The position numbers and the translations under genes were made by a program. A stretch of 52,901 bases of DNA from Meiothermus sp. (GTDB lineage Bacteria > Deinococcota > Deinococci > Deinococcales > Thermaceae). The stretch is taken from the NCBI RefSeq assembly GCF_025060375.1, contig NZ_JANXCG010000084.1, positions 1 to 52,901 of the forward strand. The letters are read 5' to 3'. Shown here piece by piece: positions 11,890 through 17,572 of this stretch (positions are counted from its first letter, which is position 1; each line of letters starts with the position of its first letter). Below the pieces are notes generated by a model, which saw only the letters and a program-made list of their open reading frames with translations, was not told where the DNA came from and made no database searches.

Positions 11890-12387
11890 CTAGCGTCTTA
11901 GCGTGCGGACGTAGGCCAGGACCGTATCGGCATCCCTAAAGGGGTTCACGCTGCGCCAGACCCGCTCAATGCGGCCCTTTGGGTTGACCAGGATGGTGTC
12001 CCGGTTGTAGAAGCCCCCAAAACCCCCCACCCCAAACAGCCGGGCTAGGGTTCCATCCTTGTCGGGCAGCATGGCCCCCTTTAGGGCCATCCTCTCTATG
12101 AAGGCGCACTGCTCAGCGGCCGGGTCGGCGCTCACCCCGAACACCTCCACCCCCAGGGCCTGAAACTGCTCGTAAAGCTCAGCATAGCGCTTGCCCTGGG
12201 CGGTGCAGCCCGGCGAGCTAGCTTTGGGGTAGAACCAGAACAGGAGGTAGCGCCCTTCCCGGGCCAGGGCCGCCAGGTCTACGGTGCGGCCGTAGGAGTC
12301 CTGTACCCGGGGCAGGTTCACGGGGTCGCCCGGCGAGAGGGCCCAGGCTGAGAGGGAAAACACGCACAGACAGAGCAACCAACGCAC
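11890..12387 (-). CDS. Peroxiredoxin (BCP/PrxQ type), probably exported
   Basis: Thiol peroxidase of the AhpC/TSA superfamily, reducing H2O2 or organic peroxides. The thioredoxin-fold motif FWFYPKASSPGCTAQGKR holds the peroxidatic Cys; a second Cys in AEQCAFIER, 33 residues later, matches the helix-3 resolving Cys of some PrxQ enzymes rather than the C-x4-C of E. coli BCP. The start chosen is GTG 12387, which gives a signal peptide (VRWLLCLCVFSLSAWA) and clears the upstream stop; the in-frame ATG at 12486 would overlap the neighbour. It is a clear paralogue of the next gene and lies in an apparent operon with the flavoprotein downstream. Confidence 0.85.
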   Translation of the reverse strand: MRWLLCLCVFSLSAWALSPGDPVNLPRVQDSYGRTVDLAALAREGRYLLFWFYPKASSPGCTAQGKRYAELYEQFQALGVEVFGVSADPAAEQCAFIERMALKGAMLPDKDGTLARLFGVGGFGGFYNRDTILVNPKGRIERVWRSVNPFRDADTVLAYVRTLRR

Positions 12388-12433
12388 ACCCCTAGACTGC
12401 CGCAAAATGCCCCAAGCAGCTGTAGGCCAGGCT

Positions 12434-12919
12434 TCAGGTAGGAGCCTGCCGCCTGGCCCTGAGGTAAGCCAGTACCTCCTCCGCATCGCGGAAGGGATTC
12501 ACGTTGCGCCAGACCCGCTCAACCTTCCCCTCCGGGTTGATCAGGATGGTGTCCCGGCTGTACAGACCCAGCAGGGCCCCTACCCCCAGGAATCCCCCTA
12601 CCCCAAAAGCCCGCCCCAACGCTCCCGAGCGGTCGGGTATCATCCGCCCCTGCAGGGCCAGGCGCTCAATGAAGCGGCACTGCTCGGCGGCTGGGTCAGC
12701 GCTTACCCCAAACACCTCGGCCCCCAGCCTTCTGAACTCCTCTTGCAACTCAGCATAGCGCTTTCCCTGGGCGGTGCAGCCGGGGGAATGGGCCTTGGGG
12801 TAAAACCAGAGCACGATGTAGCGGCCCTGCCGCACCAGCTCGGCCAGGTCCACGGTCTGCCCATGGGCATCCTGCACGCTGGGCAAAGGCGCGGGGTCAC
12901 CAGGTTTCAGCCTTGCCAT
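12434..12919 (-). CDS. Peroxiredoxin (BCP/PrxQ type), cytosolic paralogue
   Basis: Second peroxiredoxin, 161 residues, highly similar along its whole length to the preceding entry: the same SPGCTAQGKRYAEL active site (Cys48), VSADPAAEQC (Cys81) and VNPFRDAxxVLAY end. It lacks a signal peptide, so it should be cytosolic. It has a short extra loop (FLGVGALLGLY) where the paralogue has a gap. The start chosen is ATG 12919, with a -10-like TACCCT ending 6 nt before it (leaderless). An in-frame ATG at 12952 is the alternative. The tandem arrangement suggests a local duplication followed by different targeting. Confidence 0.87.
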   Translation of the reverse strand: MARLKPGDPAPLPSVQDAHGQTVDLAELVRQGRYIVLWFYPKAHSPGCTAQGKRYAELQEEFRRLGAEVFGVSADPAAEQCRFIERLALQGRMIPDRSGALGRAFGVGGFLGVGALLGLYSRDTILINPEGKVERVWRNVNPFRDAEEVLAYLRARRQAPT

Positions 12920-12976
12920 ACCCCAAGGGTAGGGGCTACCCCACCTAGCCATGGTGTCTCCGGGAACAAGGTCGGT

Positions 12977-15007
12977 TCAGCTAGAGGGCTGGGCCGATAG
13001 TCCAGTGCGGGCACTGCGCTCAGTCAGCAAAACGTTGTGCCACAGGGCAATACCACGCAAGGGCGCATAGACCTCGAGGCTGGGAAGGCTCTGACCATCC
13101 ATCCTAACGCGATGTATCTTGCTACTGCCCCTGCGGATGGCGTACAACACGTCCCCCAGCACCACCATCTCCACCTGGCTGGCGGGGTCCTCTCCCTCGG
13201 CCACAGGCAGCGGGAGCGAAAGCAGCACCTCGCCCTCTAGGGAGAGCTGGCGAACCTTTTGGCTGTCCGCATCGTAGATGAGGAGCTGCTCGTCGGGGGT
13301 CAGGCCAAGGCCGCCCAGAACCCTGAGTTCCTGGGACTCACGGCTCTTGCGAAAAGCGTAGCGCGACACGTACCGCCCATCCAAGGAAAGGCGCTGCACC
13401 TGGCGGTTTCCGTAGTCCAGAACGAAGATGTAGCTCGAGCTAGCCAGAATCGCACGAGGGGACTCAAAGGTCCCCCGGCCCTGGCCCACACCACCAAAGC
13501 GGGCCACCGGCTTGCCCTCTCGGTCAAAACGGGTGATGGTGCAGGCCTCTCCGTCCAAAACCAGAAGACCATCTGGCAAAGGGGCCAAGGAAATGGGGTA
13601 TAGAAGCTCCCCCAGCTTCATTCCGTACGGCCCTATGGACTGCGTAACCTCCCCCTCCACATCGAAGCGATGCAGCAACCGGGTAGCCCCACCTCCGTAC
13701 TCAAAGAGGCTGATCCAAAACCCCCCCTCCGAGTCCACCGCTACGGACAGGGGTGGGGAGGAAAACATCCCCCGCCCGCTTCCCACACCGCTCCACATCC
13801 GCACCAGGGTACCGCTGGGGTCCATCAGGCGCAGGGTCCCCTTCTTGGTCTCTACTGCCAGGGCCAGGTACACCGGGGCCACCAACCCTGGGTCTTCCTG
13901 CCAGTTGCCCCGCAGCACATCCAGGACGGCTTCCAGCCCTGGCCTTTTCTCAGGGTCCTTCTCCAGCATCCTGTAGACCAGGTCGGAGAGGACCTGGGGA
14001 ACCTCGGGGTTGAGCTGCTTGGGGGGTGGCGGCATCTGGGTGATCTGCTGGTGGATGACCGCCTCGTAGGCCCCTTGGAAAGGCGGCTGTCCGCAAAGGG
14101 CCTCGTAGAAGACCACCCCTAGGCTGTAGATGTCGGACCTGTGGTCAATACGCTGGCCCTTGGCCTGCTCAGGGCTCATGTAGACAGGGGTTCCAATGCG
14201 GGCCCCCGTGATGGTCAGCCGAGTAAGAACCTTCCCCGCGGCAATACCGAAATCCATCAGGCGCACACCTCGAGGGTCCACACTGCCATCCTCCCGCACC
14301 GCATTCCTGAGCACCATGATGTTGCCCGGCTTGATATCGCGATGGATGATGCCCTGGGCATGGATGTGCTGCAGGGCCTCCGCCACCCGGATCATCACCT
14401 CCACCAAGCTCCTGATGCCCAGGCGCCGCCCCTCAATGAGGCGGTCTAAACCCTCGCCCTCCAAAAACTCCATAGCGATGTAGTGGGTATCGCCCTGGTT
14501 GCCGTGATCGTAGACCTTGACGATATTAGGGTGATCCAGGCGGGCCAGAAGCTCGGCCTCTCGGTGAAAGCGGCGTACAAACCGGGGGTCACCCACATAC
14601 TTTTCCTGGGGAATTTTGAGGGCTACCAACCGGCCGTCCCTCTTGCTACGGGCCTTGTACACTGTGGCCATGCCCCCGATGCCCACCTTCTCCTGAATCT
14701 CGTAGAGGGCCTCCAGACCGGCTACGCCGCTAAGGGAAACCCTAGGGTCGGCTTTTGCCTTAGCAGGCTTTCTGTTGGGCCTGGAGCGGGGCCTACGAGG
14801 CCTGTAGGAAACCCATCCGGAGCGGGGTAGCCACATCGCCCCAAGACCCAGCAGCAGGGGCACGGCCAGCACCCAGGGCACCGCCCCCAACACCGCCACC
14901 CCCCCCAGCACCAACGCCAACAGAAGCAGCACGGCCCAGTTCAAACCGGCACGCAGCAGGAGTGCCGTGGTAATCCCTACCAGCAGAAGGGCAATCAGGT
15001 AGCTCAT
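12977..15007 (-). CDS. Membrane Ser/Thr protein kinase with C-terminal NHL-type propeller
   Basis: Hanks-type kinase, 676 residues. The order is unusual: three or four TM segments at the very N-terminus (about 2-70), a basic linker rich in Arg and Pro (about 72-95), then the kinase domain (about 100-365) with GIGGMATVYKA, the VAIK-like lysine in LVALKI, HRDIKPGN (catalytic Asp224), DFG and GTPVYMSPEQ. Repeats resembling NHL/beta-propeller blades (GRGTFESPRAILASSSYIFV, LDYGNRQVQRLSLDGR) fill about 400-670. No TM lies between kinase and propeller, so both should be cytoplasmic. The ATG at 15007 overlaps the PP2C stop (ATGA), so the pair is coupled. The substrate is unknown. Confidence 0.9.
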   Translation of the reverse strand: MSYLIALLLVGITTALLLRAGLNWAVLLLLALVLGGVAVLGAVPWVLAVPLLLGLGAMWLPRSGWVSYRPRRPRSRPNRKPAKAKADPRVSLSGVAGLEALYEIQEKVGIGGMATVYKARSKRDGRLVALKIPQEKYVGDPRFVRRFHREAELLARLDHPNIVKVYDHGNQGDTHYIAMEFLEGEGLDRLIEGRRLGIRSLVEVMIRVAEALQHIHAQGIIHRDIKPGNIMVLRNAVREDGSVDPRGVRLMDFGIAAGKVLTRLTITGARIGTPVYMSPEQAKGQRIDHRSDIYSLGVVFYEALCGQPPFQGAYEAVIHQQITQMPPPPKQLNPEVPQVLSDLVYRMLEKDPEKRPGLEAVLDVLRGNWQEDPGLVAPVYLALAVETKKGTLRLMDPSGTLVRMWSGVGSGRGMFSSPPLSVAVDSEGGFWISLFEYGGGATRLLHRFDVEGEVTQSIGPYGMKLGELLYPISLAPLPDGLLVLDGEACTITRFDREGKPVARFGGVGQGRGTFESPRAILASSSYIFVLDYGNRQVQRLSLDGRYVSRYAFRKSRESQELRVLGGLGLTPDEQLLIYDADSQKVRQLSLEGEVLLSLPLPVAEGEDPASQVEMVVLGDVLYAIRRGSSKIHRVRMDGQSLPSLEVYAPLRGIALWHNVLLTERSARTGLSAQPSS

Positions 15008-15762
15008 CTGAACCTCGCCGCAACCACCGTGATGTTGTCGGTCCCCCCCCGCATCAAGGCCTTGCCCACCCAGTTCTCCAAGGAGGACTGCAGGTCGTTG
15101 CCGAGGGTCCACTCCTCAGGAGGCACCAGCCCGTACAGACCATCCGTAGCCAGCACCAACACCTCGCCCGGGGCAAAGCTAACCGAAAATATGTCGTAGC
15201 GCACCTCAGCCAAGCCCAGGGCTTGGGTCAGCATATGCTTCCAAGGATGGTCCTTGGCCTGGTCAGGGGTAAGGGCCCCCTGGCGCACCTGCTGGGCCAC
15301 CCAGGAGTGGTCCTGGGTGAGCAGCGTCCAGCGCCCTGAGGAGTAACGGTAGGCCCGGGTATCCCCCACATGCCCCACCACCGCCTGCCGGTTCCACTCG
15401 GTGAGCAACACCGCGGTGAGGGTAGTACCCATGCCCTTGCGCGAGGGCACCCGTTCACCCTCCTGCAGGATGCGCCGCTGGGCCAGCTTGAAGGCTCGGT
15501 CCATGACCAGCGGGAGCCCTATCCCAGGCCTCCCAGTAGCGGTGTGCTCCGCGTAGGACTTGGCGGCCACGCTAACCCCCTCGATGGCCAACTTGCTGGC
15601 CAACTCCCCAGCCTCGGCCCCACCCATGCCGTCGGCCACCGCCAGCAAAACCAGGTAGCCCAAAGGGGTGGGGTGGACCGCAACCCGGTGGAAGTCCTCG
15701 TTGCTCCGACGACGACGTCCGATGTTGGATTCTGTGGCAATTTCCAGCCGGGCCAGCCGCAT
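15004..15762 (-). CDS. PP2C-type protein phosphatase
   Basis: PPM-family Ser/Thr phosphatase, the usual antagonist of a Hanks-type kinase. In 252 residues the metal-binding motifs are in place: RRSNEDFH near residue 20, LAVADGMGGAEAGE near 42, GTTLTAVLL, VGHVGDTRAYRY, ATDGLYGLV and GGTDNITVV at the end. No TM, so cytosolic. It is first in the phosphatase-kinase pair with a 4-nt overlap. The start at ATG 15762 lies 8 nt after a -10 box shared with the divergent gene at 15785. Confidence 0.93.
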   Translation of the reverse strand: MRLARLEIATESNIGRRRRSNEDFHRVAVHPTPLGYLVLLAVADGMGGAEAGELASKLAIEGVSVAAKSYAEHTATGRPGIGLPLVMDRAFKLAQRRILQEGERVPSRKGMGTTLTAVLLTEWNRQAVVGHVGDTRAYRYSSGRWTLLTQDHSWVAQQVRQGALTPDQAKDHPWKHMLTQALGLAEVRYDIFSVSFAPGEVLVLATDGLYGLVPPEEWTLGNDLQSSLENWVGKALMRGGTDNITVVAARFR

Positions 15763-15769
15763 GACACCT

Positions 15770-15776
15770 TATAATA
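15770..15776. promoter_or_regulatory. Shared bidirectional -10 box between PP2C/kinase and the 595-residue gene
   Basis: TATAAT at 15770-15775 on the plus strand ends 9 nt before the ATG at 15785. Read on the minus strand, shifted by one base, it is TATTAT (15776-15771), ending 8 nt before the ATG at 15762. The divergent starts are only 22 nt apart. No clear -35 was found on either side. Both messages would be leaderless, and the two initiation complexes could not sit there at once. Confidence 0.6.
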
Positions 15777-15784
15777 CCCCCTGA

Positions 15785-17572
15785 ATGAAGCCGGGTTTGG
15801 TTGAATTACTCGAGCTCTACGAGTACAAGGTGGACGATCTGGTGGCCGGCCAAGAGCCCAAGGGTGGGATGGCCGGCCTGACCCGGCTGCGCCAGGCCCT
15901 AATCCAAGCCAATCTACCTGGCCCCCTGGCCAAGAAGTTCCGCGACATAGATGCCCGCTTCAAGGCCCACCGCCTGGGGTACAAGACCACCGTGGAAGAA
16001 GGCCCCACCTCCGATCTGGGGGCCATCCTCGTAGAAGAGGAGCCCAACCCCCCAGACCCTGAGCGCCAAACCCTGGAAAAGCTGGCCGAGGCGGTGTACT
16101 GGGCGCGGCTGGAGCGCGAGATGGGCCGGGTAGCCAAAACCCTCAACCAGGGCAAGCGCGATGAGCTTAGGCTGGTCTACGCAATCCTGCAGAACCTCGA
16201 GGCCTACGCCAAAAACCCCCTTTTCACACAGGACTACAACCTTTCCCGGTTTACCCTGGCCCACCCCATTCCGAGCGTCTCCGACCCCCTGGTCCGCATA
16301 GACGACCCCTCAACCGCTCAAAGTCTCCTGCTGGAGCTTTTCCGTGAAGCCTTCTCCATCGCCGAAAGGCTCCACCTTCCCCCTGAAGAGACCGTACCCT
16401 ACCTGCGCCGCTTCGCCCGAAGGGTATTGGAGAGCGAGGGCGCCCTGAAAAGCCCCCTTCGCGGCCCCAGCCTAGAGAGCCTCCGCAGGGCCCTGGAGGA
16501 GGCCCACCGGCAGGGGCTGAGCCCGGCAGAGATTCGAACCTTGGAGGAGCGCCTTCAGGCTGCGGCGGCGGAGGAGCGTCGGCTGGCTTTGGTCATGGAG
16601 GAGGACCGGGTGCGCTTCTCAGCCGCCATCGAGCGGCTTTCCAACCTGCTCTCCCGCTACCTCCCCAGCCCTCGAGGGGAGGCGAGCTGGCCCCAGCTCC
16701 CCCAGAAGATTCTGGGCAGCCCCAACCCAACCTACGCGCTCTCCGAGGTCCCCCCAGAGGCCAAGGCCCTCAGCCTGCGCCTGATGCCCCTGCGCTTTAC
16801 CCTCGGGGGCTACCAGGTGGCCATCTCCCAAGCAGGCCCGGTCTTTTCCGTCAGCGTGGAAGGGCAGGAGCGCATCTTGGAGGGGAACGCCGCTTTCAGC
16901 CTCACCCTGCCCAACGCAGAGATGCGCGGGGTGCGCTACCAAGACTACCTTCACCTCTGGCTGGAGCCCCGAGAGGCGGCCACCCTTTCCAGCCTTCTAG
17001 CCGAAGGCCGGGTGCTGGCCCACCTGATGTGGCCGGAAAACCACTACGCCTACCTGCGCTTGCTCAGGGCTCTTTCGGCCAGGTTCAAGGGTCCGGTCAA
17101 CTACGCCGCCTTCCAGCCGGAATCAGCCAGCAAGTACGCTGAGGCCCCCATAGACAACCTGCAGGAGTTCGCCCGAAAGGGGCTCGAGGTTGTCCGCGGC
17201 CGCATCCAGCGCCACTCGAGCTGGGCCGCTTACCTGAGCGAGGTGGCCCAGGGGATGGGGCTGGAGGACTACGCGCAGGTTCTCTACATTGAACTCTCCG
17301 AATGGCTGGGCTTCAGCCCACCCTCGAGGGACACCCTAGGGCAAGGGGCAGGCTCTACCACCGTGAGCGAGGCCCCCAGCACCATCAAAGCCGGAAGCAC
17401 GGCGCTCTCCCTGCGCTACCAGGACGGCGTAATCTATGTCTCCTCCACCGGCCTGGTGCCCCGTAAGCTGGCCGACCTGCTGGTCTGGGTGGTCCCCGAA
17501 GGAGGGCTGGTGCTGGCCCGGGAAGGCGCCCGGGTAGCTTACAACCTAATCCTCATTCCGCCAAGGCAATAA
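15785..17572 (+). CDS. Unknown 595-residue protein divergent from kinase/phosphatase
   Basis: I do not recognise a family. No signal peptide, TM segment or cysteine is visible, so it is probably cytosolic. Residues 1-120 and 190-310 look helical and charged, with a Glu/Arg-rich stretch (about 230-290) that could form a coiled coil. The middle (about 335-400) looks beta-rich (FTLGGYQVAISQAG, VFSVSVEGQERI). Residues about 517-541 form a Ser/Thr/Gly-rich linker (GSTTVSEAPST) before a final beta-like segment. Its head-to-head position with the PP2C/kinase pair, sharing one -10 box, suggests a substrate or partner of the kinase; that is inference. Confidence 0.75.
   Translation: MKPGLVELLELYEYKVDDLVAGQEPKGGMAGLTRLRQALIQANLPGPLAKKFRDIDARFKAHRLGYKTTVEEGPTSDLGAILVEEEPNPPDPERQTLEKLAEAVYWARLEREMGRVAKTLNQGKRDELRLVYAILQNLEAYAKNPLFTQDYNLSRFTLAHPIPSVSDPLVRIDDPSTAQSLLLELFREAFSIAERLHLPPEETVPYLRRFARRVLESEGALKSPLRGPSLESLRRALEEAHRQGLSPAEIRTLEERLQAAAAEERRLALVMEEDRVRFSAAIERLSNLLSRYLPSPRGEASWPQLPQKILGSPNPTYALSEVPPEAKALSLRLMPLRFTLGGYQVAISQAGPVFSVSVEGQERILEGNAAFSLTLPNAEMRGVRYQDYLHLWLEPREAATLSSLLAEGRVLAHLMWPENHYAYLRLLRALSARFKGPVNYAAFQPESASKYAEAPIDNLQEFARKGLEVVRGRIQRHSSWAAYLSEVAQGMGLEDYAQVLYIELSEWLGFSPPSRDTLGQGAGSTTVSEAPSTIKAGSTALSLRYQDGVIYVSSTGLVPRKLADLLVWVVPEGGLVLAREGARVAYNLILIPPRQ

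Follow-up and report, generated by a model that had tools for sequence, protein, structure and literature searches.

A conserved orphan protein and a PP2C phosphatase–Hanks kinase pair that appear to share one divergent promoter box in Meiothermus

Introduction

Genes for PP2C-type phosphatases and Ser/Thr kinases are known as neighbouring pairs, for example PrpC/PrkC and PstP/PknB. In the window analysed here, a stretch of 52,901 nucleotides from a Meiothermus sp., such a pair lies head to head with a gene for a 595-residue protein, here called X, and a single candidate -10 box stands between the two directions. The locus raises the question of whether X belongs with the phosphatase and kinase, and of what the shared box does for the three genes.

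Results

The phosphatase–kinase pair and its divergent neighbour

The three genes are as follows.

12977..15007, minus strand: Hanks-type Ser/Thr kinase, 676 aa (Pfam Pkinase, E 5e-54)
15004..15762, minus strand: PP2C-type phosphatase, 252 aa, with an ATGA overlap with the kinase gene (Pfam PP2C_2, E 6e-14)
15785..17572, plus strand: X, a conserved protein of 595 aa without known family (no family match; homologues in 96/111 genomes of the order)

The gene order and the translational coupling of phosphatase and kinase described in a first-pass annotation were borne out by the sequence and its open reading frames, as the start codon of the kinase gene (ATG) overlaps the stop codon of PP2C, an overlap shared by 17/17 genomes of the genus. 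The divergent ATG codons, at 15762 for PP2C (minus strand) and 15785 for X (plus strand), leave 22 nt between them.

The kinase has a hydrophobic N-terminus (approximately residues 2-60), a kinase domain (residues 102-362) and a C-terminal NHL-like propeller (NHL-type scyF match at 395-552, E 8e-9). HRD and DFG motifs are present, the Pkinase domain scores 183.8 bits against a Pfam cutoff of 31.7, which places the protein among the Hanks-type kinases, and the best PDB match is PknB (E 3e-49). Against the PASTA kinase family NF033483, however, it reaches 298 bits where the cutoff is 450, with the match confined to residues 101-356, and Pfam gave no PASTA match. Likewise, the phosphatase belongs to the PP2C superfamily (52.6 bits against a Pfam cutoff of 24; metal-binding motifs DGMGG, GDTR and GGTDN; PDB match 5d2u, E 4e-35) but scores 183 bits against a curated cutoff of 230 for the Stp1/IreP equivalog NF033484. 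The pair therefore resembles Stp1/IreP-type phosphatases and PknB-type kinases in its adjoining genes and catalytic motifs, and differs in that both proteins fall under the curated equivalog cutoffs and that the kinase carries an N-terminal hydrophobic part and a propeller instead of PASTA domains. Within the same phylum, RqkA (DR2518) of Deinococcus radiodurans is also a Ser/Thr kinase with a C-terminal propeller, of the PQQ/WD40 type (PMC11007091), whereas the propeller here looks NHL-like, a comparison made by description.

Beside the kinase gene, at 11890-12952 of the window on the minus strand, lie two overlapping, related peroxiredoxin-like open reading frames in tandem, which are Bcp-type by resemblance; related genes also adjoin the kinase gene in genera g4 and g2.

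Linkage and joint absence of X and the paired phosphatase

We read adjacency from gene coordinates across the genomes of the order. Of the 111 genomes, 96 encode X, 33 of them in family f3 and four in f5. It can be seen that the head-to-head order, whose conservation had been set as a test of the proposed module, held in the Thermaceae-like families, where 49/49 (f1), 7/7 (f4) and 2/3 (f2) of the genomes that carry X have it next to PP2C in divergent orientation, but did not extend to f3 (0/33) or f5 (0/4), in which the two genes are unlinked. In f1 the block onward to the MFS, YbaB, RecR and roadblock genes is often common to the genomes as well, and adjacency in that family is therefore weak evidence by itself. 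In f2, the trio alone is retained, and the genes that otherwise flank it in this window are missing from its surroundings. A small unannotated open reading frame follows X in f2 and f5 genomes (L051:8100-8513, L054:6260-6646 and L056:7834-8184), one copy of which has a sub-threshold Pfam match to SAD/SRA (E 2.9e-4).

Taking as the paired phosphatase any PP2C match with E below 1e-50, we found both X and the phosphatase in 90 of the 111 genomes, X only in 6, the phosphatase only in 2 and neither in 13; because genomes are not independent samples, these counts describe an association and are not a test. A tree of 38 PP2C rows separated the paired clade from the clade of the second PP2C with 99/97 support, and every low-scoring match that was tested fell in the latter. 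The kinase is kept in most of the genomes that are without both X and the paired phosphatase. In genus g19 of family f4, PP2C and X are both absent and the kinase gene stands head to head with the MFS gene in 6/6 testable genomes (L157:4983-8146, also L161-L166), the rest of the block (YbaB, RecR and roadblock genes) being intact in L157; this loss is most simply one joint deletion. X and the paired phosphatase are also jointly missing from f3 genera g11, g29 and g31, in a family where the genes are not neighbours, and since g11 stands apart from g29/g31 in the kinase tree, with moderate support (89/92), these absences are probably separate events. Of the six genomes with X only, three are g14 genomes without the paired phosphatase and the other three are MAGs, for which a missing contig is possible. 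In the kinase tree the branches of lineages without both proteins look long, as relaxed constraint or simply fast-evolving genomes would give.

A potential explanation that would not need to invoke any shared function is that X has an unrelated job in a block that has merely escaped rearrangement, the shared promoter being a by-product of the symmetry of -10 elements, which readily yields bidirectional promoters (PMC12825309). The absence of linkage in f3 and f5, the synteny that often continues downstream of X in f1, and a g19 loss that one deletion could account for all fit this explanation. It accounts less well for f2, where the trio has stayed together without its other flanking genes, and for the joint absences in the unlinked f3 genera. 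We consider inheritance of neighbours a serious possibility, if a somewhat improbable one. The earlier proposal that the three proteins work together thus gains indirect support from the co-occurrence counts and from g19, with the three g14 genomes as counter-cases.

Protein X has no recognised family and a duplicated beta-domain

Profile, PDB-sequence and fold searches agreed with the original description of X as a protein of no recognised family: there was no match in Pfam, NCBIfam, PHROGs, PADLOC, PDB or BFVD, no homologue among plasmids, and no Foldseek match against PDB or BFVD at E<=0.001. The best profile match, to a stretch of SRPK2 (E 0.005), covers a helical region and was taken as chance, and weak PH-like and WD40-like fragments among the Foldseek results were disregarded. 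A search of genome contigs with the single protein did not reach beyond close relatives, most of them Meiothermus. In G039, a single-contig genome of 2,269,167 bases, X falls into two frames (L050:5673-7479); it is also split in G070, and in G074 it is truncated.

An AlphaFold2 model of X (mean pLDDT 86.5; pTM 0.54, at which the relative placement of domains is uncertain) has helical N-terminal parts, a long helix at 247-292 and a helical part at 397-508 between two small beta-domains. The features of the C-terminal half are as follows.

16760..16969, plus strand: beta-domain A, residues 326-395, eight predicted strands (AlphaFold2 model)
17312..17344, plus strand: flexible linker, residues 510-520, with T517 in SRDTLG (low pLDDT)
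17345..17554, plus strand: beta-domain B, residues 521-590, eight predicted strands (AlphaFold2 model, hhalign)

The two beta-domains have the same strand pattern and align with each other by hhalign at E 5.7e-4, where control pairs gave 0.06-0.24, and B is therefore probably a duplicate of A. The Ser/Thr-rich linker that had been placed at residues 517-541 is for the most part predicted beta-strand of the C-terminal domain; what survives of it is the segment at about 510-520, modelled with low confidence and so probably flexible, together with the motif around T517. This motif, SRDTLG here and PPTRETLGG in most rows of f1 and f4, is lineage-specific: the pattern [ST]R[DE]TLG is absent from g2, f2, f3 and f5 in the alignment. 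The locus is not mentioned in the accessible portions of the Thermus phosphoproteome papers, and the search for evidence that X is phosphorylated found none.

Two duplicated small beta-domains on helical arms, with a conserved flexible threonine motif, could suit a phospho-dependent scaffold of the kinase pair, in the role that FHA proteins have near actinobacterial kinases. We think this improbable, as Pfam searches found no FHA domain in any of the 36 X family members searched, the fold searches gave no match, and the FHA signature residues were not seen in the X alignment.

A shared -10 box between X and the phosphatase gene

The elements between and around the divergent starts are as follows.

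15763..15784, no strand: divergent intergenic region, 22 nt (sequence, cross-genome comparison)
15770..15775, plus strand: TATAAT, predicted -10 of X, start site ~15782 (present in all 17 genomes of the genus, and in g2 and f4)
15771..15776, minus strand: TATTAT, overlapping TATAAT; predicted -10 for PP2C and kinase, start site ~15764 (sequence)
15709..15838, no strand: excess synonymous conservation over approximately 18 codons to either side (kinase start as control)

The shared TATAAT/TATTAT box that had been noted in the gap was confirmed, and both it and the 22-nt spacing are kept in all 17 genomes of the genus, among which protein identity falls as low as 65%, from which we conclude that the box is not there by chance. 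The hexamers end 9 nt before the ATG of X and 8 nt before that of PP2C, and start sites placed 7 nt past each hexamer would give leaders of 2-3 nt, so that leaderless messages, as first suggested, are a reasonable prediction. A sigma-70 consensus scan of the locus gave no -35/-10 pair, and a consensus scan for terminators found none. When the background of the box in the genome was estimated by pattern search, only one of 12 exact TATAAT-N4-10-ATG sites had a long divergent open reading frame (252 codons) with its ATG within 10 nt, and this was the present locus. The second PP2C gene of the genome (G000:C2:18924-19655) also appears to begin shortly after a TATAAT.

Synonymous conservation was in excess next to the box. 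The 12-codon windows starting at codons 1-7 ranked 1-15 of 592 in X and 3-12 of 240 in PP2C; those of the kinase, as control, ranked 115-234 of 245, with no excess at this internal start. The MFS start was unsuitable as a further control because its position varies. One alignment row (L002), which ran in the wrong orientation, was disregarded. This excess indicates extra constraint on DNA or RNA around the shared box, a measure by which promoter flanks and leaderless-start constraint are not separable.

Outside the genus the arrangement is graded. Genus g2 has the same box with 24 nt between the genes; family f4 keeps the box, with the PP2C start some 15 nt further off behind AAGGAG; and in the g5 genomes the spacing remains at about 20-25 nt and the box is altered. 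In f2 the starts lie about 97-233 nt apart, and in genus g4 they lie 141-143 nt apart, so that sharing of the box is dispensable. A box shared over several genera with wider spacing in one offers a natural series bearing on the purpose of bidirectional promoters.

Both halves of this arrangement are known separately. Bidirectional promoters have start distances of about 10, 18 or 23 bp, and overlapping -10 boxes with starts 18 bp apart form the commonest class (Warman et al., PMC12825309); the box described here has this geometry by prediction, with hexamers overlapping on both strands, starts 18 bp apart and two mRNAs, and differs in that there is no recognisable -35 on either side and both messages are predicted to be leaderless. 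In Deinococcota, a -10 motif that functions without a -35 adjoins the start codon of about 30% of ORFs (Zhong et al., PMC12340547), and both genes here have a TANNNT a few nucleotides before the start without a -35 and so conform to this leaderless class; what differs is that one box serves two divergent genes, and that paper uses neither the word 'bidirectional' nor the word 'divergent'. On the sequence, one box thus appears to serve X and the phosphatase–kinase pair in opposite directions; this is a known kind of two-way promoter, a conserved combination of two known elements, and is therefore not evidence of a switch.

The first-pass annotation had proposed such a switch, in which polymerase would use the box in one orientation only, so that strong expression of X would silence the kinase operon, and strong expression of the operon would silence X. 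The overlap of the hexamers and steric exclusion are real, and in E. coli a factor that activates transcription one way can repress it the other way (PMC12825309), but repression of the partner required that one side be strongly activated, 5/5 bidirectional promoters tested in E. coli had too little basal activity for polymerase competition (PMC12825309), neither a -35/-10 pair nor an activator site was identified here, and the geometry is ordinary and is given up in g4 and f2, which together leave the switch very unlikely.

Discussion

The explanation that we favour is a leaderless bidirectional promoter combined with X as an accessory of the PP2C-kinase pair. The overlapping -10 hexamers would form one promoter giving two messages, one for PP2C and the membrane-anchored kinase and the opposite one for X, at presumably low expression; rather than acting as a toggle, it would keep the genes together and their expression in rough ratio. 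X would be a cytosolic accessory protein, adaptor or substrate, whose link with the phosphatase would be closer than that with the kinase; T517 may be a phosphorylation site in most lineages of f1 and f4. We give this explanation as a whole an even chance of being right. Its promoter half is well supported by the sequence and the literature; the evidence for the accessory half consists solely of conservation and co-absence.

In its favour we counted, for the promoter, the conserved box and spacing, the synonymous constraint on both flanks, the 18-bp geometry, the lack of basal competition in the five promoters tested elsewhere and the Deinococcota -10 motif, and for X, the adjacency in f1, f4 and f2, the trio kept in f2, the co-occurrence table, the split between paired and second PP2C and the joint loss in g19. 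Against it we counted the unlinked X of f3 and f5, X without the paired phosphatase in three g14 genomes, the possibility that the g19 loss is one deletion of neighbours, the f1 synteny to RecR, and the lack of the T517 motif in g2 and outside f1/f4. We conclude that X is a deeply conserved orphan that probably belongs to the same signalling pathway as the phosphatase–kinase pair, probably as an adaptor or substrate.

A bolder reading, which we regard as rather unlikely, is that X represents a new class of PP2C/Hanks-kinase partner of which no member has been described before. Soluble and carrying duplicated small beta-domains, X would anchor or regulate the phosphatase, be switched by phosphorylation at the RxTLG linker, and have its ratio to the pair set by the conserved leaderless bidirectional promoter. 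The linkage of X to the phosphatase, and their joint absence, provide a first handle on the function of an unannotated protein found in 96/111 genomes. If X is indeed a partner of the phosphatase, Ser/Thr phosphorylation signalling in the Thermus and Meiothermus lineage would gain a further component.
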